Shown here piece by piece: positions 1,241 through 34,268 of a stretch of DNA of 34,895 nucleotides. Position 1 is the first letter of the stretch. Every line of letters begins with the position of its first letter. Under the pieces are notes generated by a model. It was given only the letters and a program-made list of their open reading frames with translations. It did not search any database and was not told the DNA's origin. The stretch covers positions 1 to 34,895 of IMG/VR virus record IMGVR_UViG_3300034524_000046; one strand, 5' to 3'. Made by a program: the position numbers and the translations under genes. This DNA is from a virus.

Positions 1241-1309
1241 ATTACTCAAACCCTTCACTACTGTCCTGTGAGGGGTGAGGGGAACAAAATAAGCCCTCAG
1301 AAACGGAGG
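1241..1309 (+). promoter_or_regulatory. Repeated RNA element, copy B, with ribosome-binding-site hairpin
   Basis: TACTCA (1243-1248) is followed by an 8-bp stem, CCCTTCAC (1251-1258) with GTGAGGGG (1275-1282, one G-T wobble), around a loop with GTCCTGTG. The stem sequence differs from copy A but still pairs. A second short stem, CCTC (1295-1298) with GAGG (1306-1309), covers the GGAGG ribosome-binding site of the next gene (ATG at 1317). This fits a translational switch. DUF2800-linked and DUF2815-linked structured RNA motifs have been described in Bacillota phages; whether this is one of them needs a covariance-model search. Confidence 0.65.
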
Positions 1310-1511: not shown

Positions 1512-1776
1512 AGAACTGAACCAATGTGGCCAGACGCTGATAAGCATATCCCGGTCTCTTAGCAGCGTACTTAGCTCAAACAGTGATCCAGCACCAGAAG
1601 AAAAAGCCATCACTCTTGAAGAAGTTAGAGCGGTTCTAGCAGAAAAAAGTCGGGATGGCCATACAGCAGAAATCCGGGAGCTGCTTCAAAAGTATGGCGC
1701 TGAAAAGCTCTCAGAGATCAAGCCCTCAGATTATCAAGCGCTCCTAGCGGAAGTTGAGTTACTTGGAAATGGGTAA
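1477..1776 (+). CDS. Small helical phage protein before the DUF2800 gene
   Basis: The 99-residue product starts at an ATG six to seven bases after AAAGGAGG, inside the end of the preceding gene. The N-terminal half is a helical, serine-rich segment (LLIKELNQCGQTLISISRSL). The C-terminal half has a repeated helical pattern (ITLEEVRAVLAEKSRDGHTA, then RELLQKYGAEKLSEIKPSDY). Homologues are often mislabelled as ribosomal RNA biogenesis protein rrp5; nothing here supports that role. It overlaps the next gene by eight bases. The short coiled or helical modules suggest a protein-interaction part of the replication operon, but this is inference. Confidence 0.65.
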   Translation: MGKMSELSLLIKELNQCGQTLISISRSLSSVLSSNSDPAPEEKAITLEEVRAVLAEKSRDGHTAEIRELLQKYGAEKLSEIKPSDYQALLAEVELLGNG

Positions 1777-2890
1777 GCATGCACTTCTTTCTGCCTCTTC
1801 TTCTCATAGGTGGTTAAACTGTCCCCCTTCAGTCAGGCTAAGTGAGTCCTATGAGGACAAAGGAAGTAGCTACGCAGCCGAGGGTACTGATGCTCACACC
1901 CTTTGTGAGCACAAGCTAAAAACAGTCCTTGGCGTCCCTTCTAAAAATCCGACTGAGAATCTCACTTACTACAATGAAGAAATGGAAGAATGCGCAAATG
2001 GCTATGCAGCCTTCATCCTTGAGCTGGTAGAAGCCGCGAAAGAAAAATGTGCGGACCCGCTTGTTCTTATCGAGCAAAGACTTGATTTCTCTAAGTATGT
2101 TGAAGGCGGCTTCGGGACTGGAGACTGCTTGATCATAGCCGATTCTGAAATCCACGTATGCGACTACAAGCATGGACAGGGAATCTTGGTGGACGCTGAA
2201 AACAACCCCCAGATGATGCTCTACGCACTGGGTGCCCTAGGAATTTTCGATGGCATCTACGACATCGACACGGTTTCCATGACAATCTATCAGCCTCGTC
2301 GAAACAACATATCCACCCACACGGTATCCAAAGAGTCTTTATACCAGTGGGCAAAGGAAGTGCTCAAACCAACTGCAGAGCTTGCCTTTGCTGGCGAGGG
2401 AAACTTTAAAAGTGGTGAGTGGTGCGGATTTTGTAAAGCGAAGCACCAGTGCCGCACTAGGGCTGAGCACAACATGGAGCTGGCAAAGCACGACTTCAAG
2501 ATGCCCCCACTACTTGATGATTACGAGGTGGAAGACATCCTAAGTAAAATCGACGATCTTATCTCCTGGGCCTCTGACATCAAAGAGTATGCCCTTCAAG
2601 CAGCCGTCAGCGGAAAACAGTGGAGTGGCTGGAAGGTTGTCGAAGGAAGGTCTAACAGAAAATACTCCGATCAAACCGCAGTTGCTAAAGCCGTCAGTGC
2701 AGCAGGCTATGACCCCTATCAGAAAAAGCTTCTCGGTATTACAGCCATGTCTTCTCTTCTTGGAAAAAAGCACTTCGAAGAAATTCTTGGTAGCTACATT
2801 GAAAAACCGCCTGGAAAACCAACACTGGTTCGAGAGAGTGACAAACGTCCGCCAATCAATACGGCACAAAACGATTTTAGTGAAATTTAA
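1769..2890 (+). CDS. DUF2800 protein, Cas4/RecB-like nuclease fold
   Basis: I place the start at ATG 1769 because the family begins with a short stretch before HALLSASSSHRWLNCPPS; a TTG at 1754 is also open. The product is 373 residues. The likely nuclease core runs GTGDCLIIAD, then CDYKHG (about residues 131-136, the D-x-K part of a PD-(D/E)XK site), then NPQMMLYALGAL with the helical Q of RecB-type nucleases. A cysteine cluster follows at about 218-228 (WCGFCKAKHQC), as in Cas4 and AddB proteins that hold an iron-sulfur cluster. It sits directly before the ssDNA-binding gene, so a role in phage DNA end processing or recombination is likely. The family is clear; the activity is inferred. Confidence 0.85.
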   Translation: MGKHALLSASSSHRWLNCPPSVRLSESYEDKGSSYAAEGTDAHTLCEHKLKTVLGVPSKNPTENLTYYNEEMEECANGYAAFILELVEAAKEKCADPLVLIEQRLDFSKYVEGGFGTGDCLIIADSEIHVCDYKHGQGILVDAENNPQMMLYALGALGIFDGIYDIDTVSMTIYQPRRNNISTHTVSKESLYQWAKEVLKPTAELAFAGEGNFKSGEWCGFCKAKHQCRTRAEHNMELAKHDFKMPPLLDDYEVEDILSKIDDLISWASDIKEYALQAAVSGKQWSGWKVVEGRSNRKYSDQTAVAKAVSAAGYDPYQKKLLGITAMSSLLGKKHFEEILGSYIEKPPGKPTLVRESDKRPPINTAQNDFSEI

Positions 2891-2903
2891 GGAGGAAAAT
2901 TCT

Positions 2904-3473
2904 ATGTCTAAGAATGTAAACAGCAACCCCATGAAAGTCATCACTGGTCCCGAGACACGCTGGTCATACGCCAACGTCTGGGAAGCAAAATCCATCAACG
3001 GTGGTACTCCCAAGTTCTCGGTATCCCTCATCATTCCTAAGTCAGATACAGCTACTGTTGCAAAAATCAAAGCCGCCATTGAATCCGCTTACCATGAAGG
3101 TGAAGCCAAGCTCAAAGGAAATGGTAAGTCCGTCCCACCTCTTACCAGCATCAAGACACCACTGAGAGATGGCGATGCCGAACGTCCTGACGATCCAGCA
3201 TACGCCAATGCTTACTTTGTCAATGCCAATTCTGCTACTGCCCCCGGCATCGTCGATGCTGACAGAAATGTCATCCTTACTCGTTCTGAAGTCTACAGTG
3301 GCGTTTATGGAAGAGCCAGCATCAACTTCTACGCCTTCAACAGCAATGGTAACCGAGGAATCGCCTGTGGTCTGAACAACCTTCAGAAGATCCGTGATGG
3401 TGAACCTCTAGGTGGAAAATCAAGGGCTGAAGATGACTTTGCCACTGAACTTGACGAGGATTTCCTATCCTAA
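2904..3473 (+). CDS. Enc34-type single-stranded DNA-binding protein (former DUF2815)
   Basis: The reading frame is open from 2589, but ATG 2904, six bases after TAAGGAGGAAAA, is the natural start and leaves 189 residues. The sequence starts with a beta-strand-rich OB-fold-like region (VITGPETRWSYANVWEAK, then KFSVSLIIPK) and ends with an acidic tail (DDFATELDEDFLS), as in many ssDNA-binding proteins that recruit partners by the tail. The motif RDGDAERPDDPAYANAYFVN is typical of the family. It is placed between the DUF2800 nuclease and the DNA polymerase, so it should coat ssDNA during phage replication. It is followed by a hairpin at 3487-3519 that may lower read-through into the polymerase gene. 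Confidence 0.88.
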   Translation: MSKNVNSNPMKVITGPETRWSYANVWEAKSINGGTPKFSVSLIIPKSDTATVAKIKAAIESAYHEGEAKLKGNGKSVPPLTSIKTPLRDGDAERPDDPAYANAYFVNANSATAPGIVDADRNVILTRSEVYSGVYGRASINFYAFNSNGNRGIACGLNNLQKIRDGEPLGGKSRAEDDFATELDEDFLS

Positions 3474-3519: not shown

Positions 3520-3542
3520 CTTTAATGAAAGGAGTTTTTCGA

Positions 3543-5495
3543 TTGAATCCGAAAATCAAGTCTCTCTCGCTGGATCTTGAAACCTACTCATCAGTAGATC
3601 TAGGAAAGTCAGGAGTCTATAAATATGTCGAATCACCGGACTTTGAGATCTTACTCTTTGGATACTCAGTTGATGGAGGTGATGCTAAGGTCGTCGATCT
3701 AGCACGCGGCGAGGTGGTCCCAGAAGAAATTTCAAGCGCCCTCACAGATCCCACAATCGTAAAGTGGGCCTTCAATGCTCAGTTCGAACGCATCTGTCTA
3801 TCAAGGTGGCTAGGACTAGCCAGTGGAGACTATCTCGAGCCAGGATCTTGGCGGTGCACAATGGTTTGGTCGGCATACCTGGGCCTTCCCCTTTCCCTAG
3901 AAACGACTGGCAATGTTCTTGGCCTTGAAAAACAAAAACTCTCTGAAGGCAAAGACTTGATCCGCTATTTTTGCAGACCCTGTAAAGCTACCGCTACAAA
4001 TAATCATCGTACACGTAATCTACCTCATCATGCACCTGATAGATGGACCGACTTTAAAACCTACAACCTTCGCGATGTGGAGTCCGAAATAGAAATCAAA
4101 AACCGACTATCAAACTTTCCTGTCCCTGATGATGTGTGGAGAGAATACCACCTTGACCAGGAAATCAACGACCGCGGCGTTTTTTTAGATATGCCATTTG
4201 TAGGTCAAGCCATCCAGATAGATACCCGCTCCCGCGCAGATTTGATACAAAAAATGAAATTTCTCACCACACTTGATAATCCAAACTCTGTGGTTCAACT
4301 AAAAAAGTGGTTAGCCACTCAAGGGATCAAAACCGATTCTCTTGCTAAAAGTTCAGTCTCAGCACTGGTAAAGGATGCTCCCTCAAGTGTCCAAGAAGTG
4401 CTGGAGATAAGACAATCACTAGCCAAGTCCTCTGTTAAAAAATACTCTGCCATGGAAAACGCAGTATGTGCCGATGGCCGCGCCCGCGGAATGCTCCAGT
4501 TCTACGGAGCCAACCGAACGGGTCGCTGGGCTGGAAGAATTATACAGCTTCAGAACTTACCTCAAAATCATCTTCCTGATTTAAAGGAGGCACGGGATCT
4601 GGTTCGCTGTGGAGATTATGAGGCACTGGAACTTCTCTACGACTCAGTAGCCGGCGTTCTTTCAGAACTCATCCGCACGGCTTTCATTCCTTCATTTGGT
4701 CGCAAGTTCATCGTTGCTGATTATTCTGCAGTTGAAGCCAGAGTGATTGCTTGGATTGCCGGAGAAAAATGGCGTGAGCAGGTTTTCGAGTCCGGCGGTG
4801 ATATTTACTGCGCCTCTGCTTCACAGATGTTTAATGTTCCTGTTGAAAAACATGGCGTCAACGGTCACCTCAGGCAAAAAGGGAAAATCGCAGAACTCGC
4901 GCTCGGTTTTGGTGGCTCAGTCGGTGCCCTTAAAGCCATGGGTGCTCTGGATATGGGCCTGAATGAGGATGAACTCCGCCCACTCGTTACAGCTTGGCGA
5001 ACTACCAATCCAAACATCGTCAGACTTTGGTGGGCCGTTGATAGGGCTGCCATGAAAGCCGTAAGGGAGCGTACCTCCACCGAAACACATGGCATCCGCT
5101 TCTCCTATCAAAGTGGAATGCTCTTCATCACCCTTCCCTCTGGAAGGAGTCTCTCTTATGTGAAACCGCGCATTGGCACCAATAAGTTTGGTTCAGATTG
5201 CATCACTTACGAAGGCATTGGAAGCACAAAGAAATGGGAGCGGATCGATAGCTACGGTCCAAAATTCGTAGAAAATATTGTGCAAGCTATCAGCCGCGAT
5301 CTTCTGTGTTACTCCATGAACGCGCTCAAAGATTACGACATCGTCATTCATGTGCATGATGAAATTGTCATCGAAGCTGACATGGAAACGCCAATTGAAA
5401 CTATCTGTAACCAAATGAGCCAAACGCCTCCCTGGGCTGAGGGCCTTTTGATGCGAGCCGATGGTTACTCATGTGACTTTTATCAAAAAGATTGA
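3543..5495 (+). CDS. Phage DNA polymerase, family A, with 3'-5' exonuclease domain
   Basis: I choose TTG 3543 (eight bases after AAAGGAG), not ATG 3525, which overlaps the ribosome-binding site; this gives 650 residues starting MNPKIKSLSLDLETYSS. Exonuclease motifs are visible: DLETYS (Exo I), NAQFERI (Exo II) and YNLRDVESE (Exo III). The polymerase domain has motif A VADYSAVEARVIAWIAGE near residue 390, motif B RQKGKIAELALGFGG near 443, and motif C VIHVHDEIVIE near 602. All the metal-binding aspartates and the motif B lysine are present, so it should be active. No 5'-3' exonuclease domain is present, as usual for phage enzymes of this type. It should be the replicative polymerase of the phage, working with the primase/VirE helicase. 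Confidence 0.93.
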   Translation: MNPKIKSLSLDLETYSSVDLGKSGVYKYVESPDFEILLFGYSVDGGDAKVVDLARGEVVPEEISSALTDPTIVKWAFNAQFERICLSRWLGLASGDYLEPGSWRCTMVWSAYLGLPLSLETTGNVLGLEKQKLSEGKDLIRYFCRPCKATATNNHRTRNLPHHAPDRWTDFKTYNLRDVESEIEIKNRLSNFPVPDDVWREYHLDQEINDRGVFLDMPFVGQAIQIDTRSRADLIQKMKFLTTLDNPNSVVQLKKWLATQGIKTDSLAKSSVSALVKDAPSSVQEVLEIRQSLAKSSVKKYSAMENAVCADGRARGMLQFYGANRTGRWAGRIIQLQNLPQNHLPDLKEARDLVRCGDYEALELLYDSVAGVLSELIRTAFIPSFGRKFIVADYSAVEARVIAWIAGEKWREQVFESGGDIYCASASQMFNVPVEKHGVNGHLRQKGKIAELALGFGGSVGALKAMGALDMGLNEDELRPLVTAWRTTNPNIVRLWWAVDRAAMKAVRERTSTETHGIRFSYQSGMLFITLPSGRSLSYVKPRIGTNKFGSDCITYEGIGSTKKWERIDSYGPKFVENIVQAISRDLLCYSMNALKDYDIVIHVHDEIVIEADMETPIETICNQMSQTPPWAEGLLMRADGYSCDFYQKD

Positions 5496-5502
5496 TCCTT
5501 TT

Positions 5503-5570
5503 CCTACTCATAGTGGCGTTTTCTGTCCTGTGGGTAATAGAGGGCACTGATGCCTTCAAAAAAAAGGAGG
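5503..5570 (+). promoter_or_regulatory. Repeated RNA element, copy C, with ribosome-binding-site hairpin
   Basis: TACTCA (5505-5510) precedes a 7-bp stem, GTTTTCT (5518-5524) with AGAGGGC (5539-5545, three G-T wobbles), around a GTCCTGTGG loop. Compared with copy A only one side of the stem has changed and pairing is kept by wobbles. CCTTC (5553-5557) can pair with the GGAGG ribosome-binding site (5566-5570) of the zinc-ribbon gene that starts at 5578. The element follows the polymerase stop by about eight bases. Confidence 0.6.
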
Positions 5571-5577
5571 TGGAAAT

Positions 5578-5778
5578 ATGTTCTATGTAAAGAAAACTGT
5601 AAATGACACATTGGAGATCAAGTTGGAACTTCACGACGACAATGTATTCACCATCTGCCCAGATTGCGGTGTAGAAATCTCGGAGCTCTTTAGTGATGGG
5701 AAAAGTACTCTTTATGGAACTGCTCTTTTTTGTCCAAAGTGCAGCACAGCAATATTTAATAATGAAAAGCGAGGCTGA
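5578..5778 (+). CDS. Small zinc-ribbon protein
   Basis: The product is 66 residues from an ATG seven bases after AAAGGAGG. Two CxxC knuckles, CPDCG near residue 27 and CPKC near residue 52, indicate a zinc ribbon, which in small phage proteins usually serves DNA, RNA or protein binding. The rest has beta-strand character (LEIKLELHDDNVFTI). It is directly behind RNA element copy C, whose second stem covers its ribosome-binding site. No more specific function can be given. Confidence 0.75.
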   Translation: MFYVKKTVNDTLEIKLELHDDNVFTICPDCGVEISELFSDGKSTLYGTALFCPKCSTAIFNNEKRG

Positions 5779-31188: not shown

Positions 31189-31884
31189 ATGGACCTTAGA
31201 AAACTGATCCTAACAGAAAATGAATGCTTTTTAGCGGGAAAGAAAATCAAACCAAGAGGCATCATGATCCACAGCACTGGGGCCAACAATCCATACCTTC
31301 GAAGGTACGTTGGGCCGAATGATGGCCTCCTTGGAGAAAACCAGTACGGAAATCACTGGAACCAGCGTAGGCCCAGTGGTAGACAGGTTTGTGTCCATGC
31401 CTTTATAGGAAGGCTAAGGAGTGGTGACGTTGCAACTTATCAAACCCTACCCTGGGACCACAGAGGTTGGCATGCAGGTGGCAAGGCCAATAACACTCAC
31501 ATTGGCGTTGAAATCTGTGAAGATGGTCTATCTGATCCGACCTATTTTCTCGAGGTCTATAAAGAAGCCACGGAACTTTGCGCTCACCTTTGCAAGACTT
31601 ATCAGCTGACTGAAAAAGACATCATCGGTCACTTCGAAGGTAGCCAGAAGAAGATTGCCAGTAACCATGCTGACCCTCTGCACTGGTTTTCTAGGCACGG
31701 TAAGAGTATGGATACTTTCAGGGCCGACGTGAGAAAACTACTGGCGCCACCTACCCCCTCACCTCCGCCCAAAAAGCTCTACAGGGTTCAAGTGGGTGCC
31801 TACAGCATGAAATCAAATGCGGACGCTATGCTTGCCAAGGTAAAAGCTGCAGGCTTTACTGATGCTTTTATCAAAATCGAATAA
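31189..31884 (+). CDS. Endolysin: N-acetylmuramoyl-L-alanine amidase with SPOR-like end
   Basis: The 231-residue product starts at ATG 31189, seven bases after AGGAGG. The Amidase_2 domain has zinc-ligand His in GIMIHSTGA (residue 28) and in NHADPLHWF (near 160), with HRGWHAGGKANNTHIGVEIC between them. After a proline-rich linker (PPTPSPPP) the last 37 residues (LYRVQVGAYSMKSNADAMLA and on) are a SPOR-like peptidoglycan-binding domain. It cuts the bond between muramic acid and the stem peptide to lyse the host. No signal peptide is seen, in keeping with release by the holin. Confidence 0.93.
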   Translation: MDLRKLILTENECFLAGKKIKPRGIMIHSTGANNPYLRRYVGPNDGLLGENQYGNHWNQRRPSGRQVCVHAFIGRLRSGDVATYQTLPWDHRGWHAGGKANNTHIGVEICEDGLSDPTYFLEVYKEATELCAHLCKTYQLTEKDIIGHFEGSQKKIASNHADPLHWFSRHGKSMDTFRADVRKLLAPPTPSPPPKKLYRVQVGAYSMKSNADAMLAKVKAAGFTDAFIKIE

Positions 31885-31893
31885 GTATGACTT

Positions 31894-31932
31894 TGCCACC
31901 TGGTGCTTAATTGCACTCGGTGGCATTTTTTT
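31894..31932 (+). terminator. Intrinsic terminator after the lysis genes
   Basis: TGCCACC (31894-31900) pairs with GGTGGCA (31919-31925), with an inner GTGC/GCAC stem (31903-31916), followed by seven T residues. It is the strongest terminator in the window and ends the late operon, ahead of the integration module. Confidence 0.85.
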
Positions 31933-31939
31933 ATTTTTA

Positions 31940-32004
31940 GGTACTCAAAATCCCTCTTTCGGTCCTGTGGATGGTGAGAGGGATTTCTGCCCTCCGATTG
32001 GAGG
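31940..32004 (+). promoter_or_regulatory. Repeated RNA element, copy D, with ribosome-binding-site hairpin
   Basis: TACTCA (31942-31947) leads to a perfect 8-bp stem, ATCCCTCT (31950-31957) with AGAGGGAT (31977-31984), and a loop with GTCCTGTGG. A second perfect stem, CCTCC (31991-31995) with GGAGG (32000-32004), loop GATT, covers the ribosome-binding site of the 32012 gene. It starts a few bases after the late terminator, so it belongs to the leader of the integration module. No clear promoter is seen between the two. Confidence 0.7.
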
Positions 32005-32011
32005 TAAACGA

Positions 32012-32236
32012 ATGAAAGTCACTGATACAATTCCAGAAATCACAATTAAGAAAAAACCTATTTCACAGGATCAACTTCAGAGAGAGTTTGATTACATTAG
32101 AGCACAAATGGTCCTTGAAAACTTGTTTCAAAAAGGACTCATTTCTGAACTTGAGTTTAACAAAATTACGAAGCTGAATCGTCAATCTTTCACTCCAGCT
32201 TTAGCACAGATTATGCCTGAAAGTCGTTGCTATTAA
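32012..32236 (+). CDS. SHOCT-like small protein before the recombinases
   Basis: ATG 32012, seven bases after GGAGG, gives 74 residues; a frame open upstream to 31862 crosses the terminator and element D. The middle (REFDYIRAQMVLENLFQKGL and ISELEFNKITKLN) fits a SHOCT-type helical pair. Small proteins of this sort commonly precede serine recombinase genes in Bacillota mobile elements. A role as recombination directionality factor is possible but not shown. Confidence 0.7.
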   Translation: MKVTDTIPEITIKKKPISQDQLQREFDYIRAQMVLENLFQKGLISELEFNKITKLNRQSFTPALAQIMPESRCY

Positions 32237-32279
32237 AGCGTTTCAGAGGTAATATGTGACACTACAAGGAGGTGGAAAA

Positions 32280-33842
32280 TTGAAAAAGGTAACGAAAATC
32301 AATCAAAATTCAAGTGATTACCAAAAGCATTCAAAACTTCGTGTGGCAGCTTATTGCAGAGTTTCAACAGACTCCGATGACCAGATGCTAAGCCTAGAAA
32401 CACAAGTTAAACATTACGAATCTTACATTAAAGCAAATCCCGATTGGGAGTTTGCTGGTCTATACTACGACGAAGGCATCACTGGGACCAAAAAAGAAAA
32501 ACGACCTGAACTGCTTCGGATGATTTCCGACTGCGAGGATAAGAAAATTGATTTTATCGTAACCAAGTCCATCAGCCGATTTGCCCGAAACACCACGGAC
32601 TGCTTGGAACTGGTGCGAAAGCTAATTGACCTTCGCATCTTCATTTATTTTGAAAAAGAAAACATCAACACAGGCTCCATGGAAAGCGAACTCATGCTGT
32701 CGATCCTAAGTGGACTGGCCGAAAGTGAGTCTATCTCCATTTCAGAGAATAACAAATGGTCTGTACAACGACGATTCCAAAATGGAACCTATAAAATCTC
32801 TTCTCCTCCCTATGGCTACTACAGTGTCGATGGGAAGCTGATTATCAACGAGGAACAGGCTGAAATTGTCCGCTTTATCTTTGCTGAAATTTTATCTGGA
32901 AAAGGCACACAGAAAATTGCTGATGACTTGAACCGGCGCGGGGTTCCAACTCAAAAAGGTGGCAAATGGAGATCGACTACCATACGTGGAATGGCCACCA
33001 ATGAAAAGTACACTGGTGATGCTATCTTTCAAAAGACCTACACTGACAGTTCCTTCAATAGACACACCAACAATGGGGAGAAAGATCAGTACCTTATCAA
33101 AGGGCATCATGAAGCCATCATTAGCCACGATAAGTTTGAGGCCGCACAGGCCATTATCGAACAACGTGGACGGGAAAAAGGTATAAAGAAAAATACCTCT
33201 AAATACCTTAGCCGCTACCCCTTTTCAGGAAAAATCATCTGTAGTGAGTGTGGTGGAAAATTAAAACGAAGGGTCATGAGCTCAGGAAAGCACAAAATCA
33301 CATGGTCCTGCTCCACTCATATTTCAGACATAGATAGATGCTCAATGAAATCTACTCCTGAAACTCAAATCGAGCATGCCTTTGTCACGATGATCAACAA
33401 GCTCATCTTTGGTCATAAGTTTGTTTTGAAGCCACTACTGGATAGTCTTACCGGAATGAACTCTGAAGATAGCCTCTCAAAGATTCAAGAGATCGATAAG
33501 AAAATAGAAGAAAACGGTGAACAGCAAAATGTGCTTAGTGGGCTTAGAGCCAAAGGTTATCTTGATCCAGCAGTTTATAAGAAAGGAAACAATGAGCTTT
33601 TAAATGAACTGGAACGCCTGAAGCAGCAAAAAGAATCTTTTATGAGGTTGCTGAGTAGTGATGTCGAGACTCAAAAAGTTGTCAATGAACTCTTGCGATT
33701 TACGAGCAAATCTCCCATGCTCTTAGAGTTTAACAGTGATATTTTTGACAGATTTGTGGATCACATCACTGTGTACTCAAGGGAAGAGATAGGATTTAAC
33801 TTGAAATGCGGAATTACACTGAAAGAAAGGCTGGTGAATTGA
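32280..33842 (+). CDS. Large serine recombinase
   Basis: TTG 32280, seven bases after AAGGAGGTGG, gives 520 residues; GTG 32256 lacks a site. The catalytic domain has [15 protein letters not shown] (nucleophile Ser in RVS, near residue 27), YYDEGITGTKKEKRPEL and [20 protein letters not shown]. Then come a recombinase DNA-binding domain (GTQKIADDLNRRGVPTQKGG), a zinc ribbon (CSECGGKLKRR with a later C and C) and a C-terminal coiled coil (ELLNELERLKQQKESFMRLL). The usual GVP/GEGK-like parts are present and it should be active as integrase. It is followed directly by two more recombinase genes. Confidence 0.93.
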   Translation: MKKVTKINQNSSDYQKHSKLRVAAYCRVSTDSDDQMLSLETQVKHYESYIKANPDWEFAGLYYDEGITGTKKEKRPELLRMISDCEDKKIDFIVTKSISRFARNTTDCLELVRKLIDLRIFIYFEKENINTGSMESELMLSILSGLAESESISISENNKWSVQRRFQNGTYKISSPPYGYYSVDGKLIINEEQAEIVRFIFAEILSGKGTQKIADDLNRRGVPTQKGGKWRSTTIRGMATNEKYTGDAIFQKTYTDSSFNRHTNNGEKDQYLIKGHHEAIISHDKFEAAQAIIEQRGREKGIKKNTSKYLSRYPFSGKIICSECGGKLKRRVMSSGKHKITWSCSTHISDIDRCSMKSTPETQIEHAFVTMINKLIFGHKFVLKPLLDSLTGMNSEDSLSKIQEIDKKIEENGEQQNVLSGLRAKGYLDPAVYKKGNNELLNELERLKQQKESFMRLLSSDVETQKVVNELLRFTSKSPMLLEFNSDIFDRFVDHITVYSREEIGFNLKCGITLKERLVN

Positions 33843-34268
33843 ATGGGTCACACTCCCTATGGTTACAGAATTGAAAATGGTAAAGCTATTGTCGATGATG
33901 AAAAGGCTAAACAAATAAGATTGTTGTTCAAAGCTTATCTATCCGGTGACTCACTAGCAACTGCAGCTAAAAAAGCAGGCATTAAAGCCTTCCATGCTGG
34001 AATTGGTAACATACTGAAAAATAAAAGATATGTAGGGGATGACTTCTACCCTGCAATCATTGATAAGAGTGCCTTTGAAGCCGCTGAGAAGGAACGTATG
34101 AATCGGGCAGAAAAGCTTGGTCGCATATGGGAGAAGAAAGAACCAAAAGAATCTGCTCCTCCCACCGTCTTCTCCATTACAGCTGAAAATGAACAGTTTG
34201 ATGATCCTTTTAAGCAGGCAGAATACGCCTATAGTTTGATAGAAATGGAGGTGAAGGATATTGAATAA
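33843..34268 (+). CDS. Recombinase DNA-binding-domain protein without catalytic domain
   Basis: The 141-residue product starts at ATG 33843 directly after the stop of the first recombinase. It begins [20 protein letters not shown] and aligns with the recombinase domain after the catalytic part (PPYGYYSVDGKLIINEEQAE in the upstream gene), then [20 protein letters not shown]. No YCRVSTD-type segment, zinc ribbon or coiled coil is present. It is therefore not a recombinase by itself. It may be a fragment of a former full gene, or an accessory DNA-binding protein kept on purpose, as the start, stop and close packing suggest. It overlaps the next gene by eight bases. Confidence 0.8.

Follow-up and report, generated by a model that had tools for sequence, protein, structure and literature searches.

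The window analysed in this study is a 34.9-kb phage contig from IMG/VR and carries four copies, designated A to D, of a two-box repeat. The following features are located at and around these copies (+, plus strand):

621-1169, +: sigma-like regulator gene (182 aa), directly upstream of copies A and B
1175-1180 and 1194-1202, +: boxes of copy A, TACTCA and TGTCCTGTG (pattern and profile)
1185-1198 and 1202-1215, +: arms of the copy A hairpin with a UGU loop, at the 3' end of the sigma-like gene (fold z -6.3, covariation)
1243-1248 and 1262-1270, +: candidate promoter of copy B, -35-like TACTCA and -10-like TGTCCTGTG (pattern and profile), preceding the DUF2800/ssDNA-binding/DNA polymerase operon
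1276-1281 and 1294-1299, within 1276-1309, +: leader hairpin of copy B, UGAGGG/CCCUCA
1305-1309, +: Shine-Dalgarno (SD) site GGAGG of copy B; CCCTC:SD pairing competes with the leader hairpin
1317-1511, +: first gene after copy B (64 aa)
1477-1776, +: next open reading frame (ORF) after the 64-aa gene
1754-2890, +: DUF2800 gene
2589-3473, +: Enc34-type ssDNA-binding protein
3525-5495, +: DNA polymerase A
5505-5510 and 5524-5532, +: candidate promoter of copy C, TACTCA and TGTCCTGTG, after the DNA polymerase gene
5540-5546 and 5551-5557, within 5540-5570, +: leader hairpin of copy C (predicted fold)
5566-5570, +: SD of copy C; the downstream gene starts at 5578
31894-31938, +: intrinsic terminator of the lysis operon, a 13-bp stem (31894-31906/31913-31925) followed by a T-run
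31942-31947 and 31961-31969, +: candidate promoter of copy D, TACTCA and GGTCCTGTG
31990-32004, +: CCCTCC...GGAGG leader hairpin of copy D over the SD at 32000-32004 (predicted fold)
From 32012: 74-aa SHOCT_2 gene, preceded by copy D and followed by the serine recombinase gene at 32256-33842

The DUF2800 ORF overlaps the listed Enc34-type ORF, the true start of which is probably later, and the DUF2800 protein (1754-3473 region) also matches a PDDEXK_1 nuclease. A second short recombinase-like ORF (33843-34268; PF07508 fragment, phrog_7701) is located 3' of the serine recombinase gene.

Four matches to TACTCA-N14-GTCCTGTG are present in the window (at 1175, 1243, 5505 and 31942 for A, B, C and D, respectively), all on the plus strand, and 100 shuffles of the window contain none, which bears out the original prediction that four sites share both motifs. 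The gap between the motifs is exactly 14 nt in all four copies. When N10 to N24 were allowed in a scan of viral contigs, apparent true copies, i.e. two-box matches followed by a leader and an SD, were found only at N14. With a profile from related contigs, 100 distinct copies were gathered, confirming the existence of further copies in relatives, which had been named as a check. Element positions 1-6 (TACTCA) and 20-28 (TGTCCTGTG) are near-invariant in these 100 copies, an invariance that is inflated in absolute terms because the contigs were collected by the exact pattern. The 13 bases separating TACTCA from TGTCCTGTG are variable, and a purine-rich, GGTGAGAGGG-like stretch directly follows TGTCCTGTG. 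Copies with one or two mismatches were few in the same contigs and mostly of type A. The number of matches to GTCCTGTG alone, with one mismatch allowed, was at chance level, and the loop octamer by itself is therefore uninformative; a scan for a GTCCAAG variant yielded no match having a leader and an SD. Since most N14 matches in genome contigs are random, judging from the expected 14-mer count, only those with phage context were used. One to four sites were found in each of ten bacterial genomes and none with the reversed-pattern control. Bacterial carriers include Alkalibacterium thalassium DSM 19181 (L198 with A, B and C, and D likewise present in the genome) and Syntrophomonas wolfei subsp. 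methylbutyratica JCM 14075 (L149). A literature search found no paper describing these boxes.

The model of the regulator encoded at 621-1169 predicts an N-terminal part formed by a β-hairpin, one long helix and a Cys4 motif, and a C-terminal sigma region-4 helix-turn-helix (HTH), in which SQKTVNNRK is the recognition helix. The protein gave a sub-threshold match to Sigma70_r4_2 in Pfam, matches to phrog_13787 and phrog_351 ('RNA polymerase sigma factor') and a weak one to TIGR02937. In a structure search, residues 101-182 of the model resembled sigma region 4 (Z about 10), and the matches include sigmaE region 4 on -35 DNA (rmsd 1.6 over 67 residues). For sigma region 2, no family match was obtained in the sequence and nothing recognisable was seen in the model of the N-terminal half; the structure search, which barely covered this half, returned no match spanning it. 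In viral and bacterial genomes, each close homologue of the regulator gene is followed by an element at a distance of 10-90 nt; in all 16 close viral relatives (L101 among them), this distance is 10-80 nt. No element was found with the L354 protein, which is 38% identical and encoded in a different gene neighbourhood, and no relatives of the L355 protein beyond itself were found.

Divergent homologues of the regulator, encoded in other phages and in genomes of Clostridia and Bacilli, are likewise followed by a two-box element with the same spacing and different boxes, often directly behind a terminator. The gap n in TCAA-n-TCC has a sharp maximum at 14-15, where 17 of 28 non-window lineages fall, as against about 0.25 per gap in shuffles. 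The boxes are TACTCAAA...TGTCCAAGG in L355, T[TA]CTTAAA...TGTCCT in L527 and L566, CGCTCAAA...TCTCCAG in L533, L544 and L563, and CGTCAAAA...CTCCAGTG in L520, L523 and L530. Up to four tandem TACTCAAA...TGTCCTAAGG elements with a 48-nt period are present in L525, L526, L555, L560 and L562; these tandem elements lie at about 2006-2180 on the sense strand, 3' of the sigma-like gene and ahead of the gene that follows it. Another divergent branch of the regulator (L539, L540, L541, L543 and L546) has GTTCAG...TTTCCTTTGGG boxes and seems to belong to an integrative element and not to a phage.

Across 30 lineages, identity of the recognition helix correlated with identity of the -35 octamer (r 0.63) and identity of the N-terminal module with that of the -10 box (r 0.68). 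The cross-correlations (helix with -10, N-terminal module with -35) were 0.25 and 0.26, and between the protein modules themselves there was almost no correlation (0.12). Partial Mantel tests gave p < 2e-4 for helix/-35 and for N-terminal module/-10, with permutations that remove phylogeny only in part; the N-terminal module also correlated with the spacer (r 0.37), so that its correlation with the -10 box partly reflects common ancestry. A set of 23 lineages was analysed as well. Divergent boxes were placed by eye on the downstream TCC, the -35 octamer was taken at a fixed offset and not by similarity, and L567 (no good -35/-10 pair after the gene) and L531 (unresolved by eye) were excluded. 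In L538 and L571, the N-terminal identity is 10% and the helix identity 62%, and the -35 box CGTCCAAC is identical.

The regulators of the sister phages NatCom_11393 (PV036425) and NatCom_21982 (PV036431) are identical in 126 of the first 132 residues, and their recognition helices read ISRNTYTYRRDKL and YNNQSAVNYRKQK, respectively. Each genome harbors three elements sited as B, C and D, i.e. after the regulator gene, after the DNA polymerase gene and before the recombinase gene. The -35 boxes are CGGCCAAA, CGGCCAAG and CGGCCAAA (CGGCCAA[AG] in all three) in NatCom_11393 and TGTTCAAA in all three elements of NatCom_21982, and the -10 box CCTCCAGTGGG is identical in all six elements. The flanks of the polymerase site are nearly identical in the pair, and the -35 change therefore stands out. 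The pair is the best control for ancestry and the cleanest evidence, yet a single event.

A terminator was found directly upstream of 11 of 14 type D copies, compared to 50 of 3000 random positions (1.7%). Among the divergent relatives, a terminator separates the sigma-like gene from the element in L355, L478, L512-L517, L520-L523, L527, L530, L533 and L566. In the window, copy D starts a few bases past the lysis-operon terminator (31894-31938), and a search around it (31600-32200) revealed no sigma-70-type promoter. With the terminator abutting copy D and no such promoter seen, some part of the element must start transcription there.

Based on the boxes, their rigid spacing, the location behind terminators and the way in which each box co-varies with one module of the protein, the four sites are probably promoters read by the phage sigma-like protein encoded at 621-1169 (probability about 0.85). 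This value applies to the sites being promoters and to this protein recognising them; within it, sigma factor and activator split about 2 to 1. Sequence comparison strongly implies that the C-terminal HTH reads TACTCA. The N-terminal module would read the downstream box, and the protein would act as a sigma factor and not activate transcription together with a sigma factor of the host. In such a mechanism, the sigma-region-4 HTH would bind the -35-like box TACTCA(AA), and the N-terminal module would be coupled, at fixed spacing, to the -10-like box TGTCCTGTG. RNA polymerase might then initiate within about 10 nt 3' of TGTCCTGTG, and three operons would be transcribed, namely recombination/replication from B, the following early block from C and integration/excision from D, giving transcripts with a conserved 5' hairpin GAGGG:CCCTC that would exclude an SD-masking hairpin. 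The earlier idea of one trans-acting factor serving several operons of both the early and the integration modules very probably holds; the kind of target proposed, an RNA loop, is disfavoured, as the evidence indicates promoter DNA and the stem is not general.

At somewhat less than even odds, the family might consist of minimal two-module sigma factors of about 135-185 aa that lack a canonical region 2 and whose modules evolve independently. The N-terminal β-hairpin/helix, sometimes with a zinc knuckle, would in that case recognise the -10 box and the region-4 HTH the -35 box, and the independence of the modules would let phages switch specificity at all their promoters together.

A less probable account, which likewise treats the sites as DNA promoters recognised by the 621-1169 protein, makes this protein an activator: as in RinA/Ltr, a region-4-like domain would bind TACTCA and recruit polymerase with the host sigma factor, and the downstream box would be a second contact or a poor host -10. 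The absence of a recognisable sigma region 2 in both sequence and model fits this account. Against it, no sigma-A -10 was found near copy D, and variation in the downstream box follows the N-terminal module of this protein, as expected of a two-box reader. Furthermore, the sites of Ltr consist of imperfect repeats next to a sigma-A promoter (PMC13123087), not of two different boxes at fixed spacing.

Transcripts from the candidate promoters would carry a helix absent from the list of the original prediction, in which GAGGG 3' of the downstream box pairs with CCCTC 5' of the SD. In 45 diverse copies, the energy of the copies' own pairing was -10.4 kcal/mol versus -8.7 ± 0.29 kcal/mol after swapping (0 of 20000 permutations), and compensatory changes include GAAGGC/GCCTTC and GGAAGC/GCTTCC. 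This helix and the CCCTC:GGAGG hairpin over the SD are mutually exclusive. As for the second stem formerly proposed at the GGAGG site, SD-complementary segments are present in B, C and D.

Accessibility of the SD was predicted by folding a short RNA, beginning after the downstream box, and a long read-through RNA. From long to short RNA, the group means changed from 0.24 to 0.67 (B), from 0.31 to 0.65 (unclassified) and from 0.17 to 0.52 (L478 group), and the values for the window copies were 0.36/0.37 (B) and 0.46/0.46 (C), with D closed in both. An added layer of read-through silencing as in T4 gene e is rather doubtful. Transcripts started upstream would fold the spacer onto GAGGG and free CCCTC to mask the SD, and in promoter-born transcripts, which are devoid of the spacer, the SD would stay open. 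The group means and the precedent of T4 gene e (PMC3014915) are in line with this; the window's own copies, with no difference between long and short RNA, and spacer shuffles, which alter SD accessibility little, are not. Since the window copies are flat and shuffling the spacer has little specific effect, the T4 gene e precedent indicates only a possible extra layer. A dedicated read-through-silencing stem was considered and is unsupported by spacer shuffles or window copies.

The stem of 7-8 bp with preserved pairing that was originally described pairs the variable spacer with bases 3' of GTCCTGTG. Duplex energies of own and swapped arms were compared in non-redundant relatives, where a real stem should pair better within a copy. 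Own pairing was better in type A (p < 2e-4), with compensatory changes on both arms that keep the pairing, but the stem was unsupported in B (p = 0.20), C (0.36), D (0.06) and unclassified copies (0.92). Covariation of the stem, suggested earlier as a check, is accordingly significant in type A only, the pooled value for 41 diverse copies being p = 0.15. In the window, copy A folds into a 14-bp hairpin (UGU triloop, z -6.3) that contains GUCC and GGAU, so that GTCCTGTG is paired there and not the loop it was taken for, and the predicted fold of copy C differs from the described stem. A general RNA stem from the spacer to the bases after the box was rejected for B, C and D by the swap and pooled tests. 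In L481, L482 and L486, the type A hairpin is kept and TACTCA and GTCCTGTG are lost or not intact. With hairpins devoid of boxes in these relatives and boxes devoid of a conserved stem in B and C, hairpin and boxes are therefore separate things; copy A joins an additional pair of boxes to an independent hairpin in which the sigma-like mRNA ends.

Two further pairings were observed. The boxes of copy C in L198, L343, L344 and L346 form a TACTCACAGG...CCTGTGAGTA quasi-palindrome, limited to one sub-lineage and probably due to drift. In both NatCom copy C elements (L573:20863 and L575:10415), the spacer ATGGG..TTCACC can pair with the leader GGTGAAGCCCAT, forming a long inverted repeat around the -10 box.

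An RNA element as originally suggested, with a GTCCTGTG loop recognised by a protein or a small RNA for translational control, is very improbable. The covarying type A hairpin, the supported leader helix and the SD-complementary segments are compatible with it; opposed to it are the lack of support for the stem in B, C and D, the pairing of GTCCTGTG in A, the rigid box spacing, the position of the elements next to terminators with no other promoter seen, the co-variation of the boxes with a DNA-binding helix and the separability of hairpin and boxes (L481, L482, L486). An operator of a phage repressor is the least probable reading, as short repeated sites ahead of several operons would suit it, but the boxes are dissimilar and in a single orientation, and the sites lie directly behind terminators, with no other promoter seen beside copy D.

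A search of the whole window against Rfam gave no match at the gathering threshold, and permissive thresholds gave nothing credible at the copies; RF02960 was not among the low-score listings. The suggested DUF2800-linked RNA motif (RF02960) at copies A and B was therefore not recovered. RF02960 was detected in two relatives, upstream of the divergent sigma-like gene (L568:1180-1336 and L571:1262-1419), and since it is located there and not at the two-box site, it is a separate element. Its position directly 5' of this gene suggests that the orphan RNA may regulate the regulator.

With the promoter reading, an apparent RNA motif is recast as a phage regulon with a named candidate regulator. 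The NatCom pair represents a natural experiment in regulator-promoter co-evolution, in which the helix and three -35 boxes changed and the -10 box was kept. If the reading is true, it would name the switch for the replication and excision operons of many Clostridia and some Bacilli prophages, the regulation of which is unannotated. Should the protein function as a sigma factor despite lacking a normal region 2, it would inform the minimal needs for transcription start and provide a source of orthogonal promoter/regulator pairs.

Among known systems, RF02960 shares the same gene neighbourhood in some relatives, but is a 158-nt RNA, absent from the window and with no sequence or structure match to the two-box sites. 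T4 gp55 and the SPO1 middle and late sigma factors are comparable as phage proteins with sigma features and a set of phage promoters in which non-host boxes have a fixed spacing. Unlike these, the protein described here is much smaller and has no recognisable region 2, the sites belong to replication and integration modules of temperate phages, and the boxes diversify with separate protein modules. Staphylococcal RinA/Ltr (PMC13123087) is similar in that a small phage regulator is encoded directly 5' of the promoter it controls; it acts on late genes through repeats beside a sigma-A promoter, in contrast to the two dissimilar boxes at early and integration operons found here. The leaders of T4 gene e and I-TevI (PMC3014915) likewise have a promoter inside a segment able to mask the ribosome-binding site in longer transcripts, whereas read-through silencing is a prediction here and fails for the window copies. 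The closest experimental precedent is the int gene of S. aureus prophages, where a conserved short untranslated region is a promoter of the host sigma-H without sigma-A or sigma-B boxes (PMC2869324), i.e. a conserved pre-integrase leader serves as an alternative-sigma promoter. The factor is a host sigma factor in that case, whereas here it is very probably encoded by the phage and the boxes are common to several operons.
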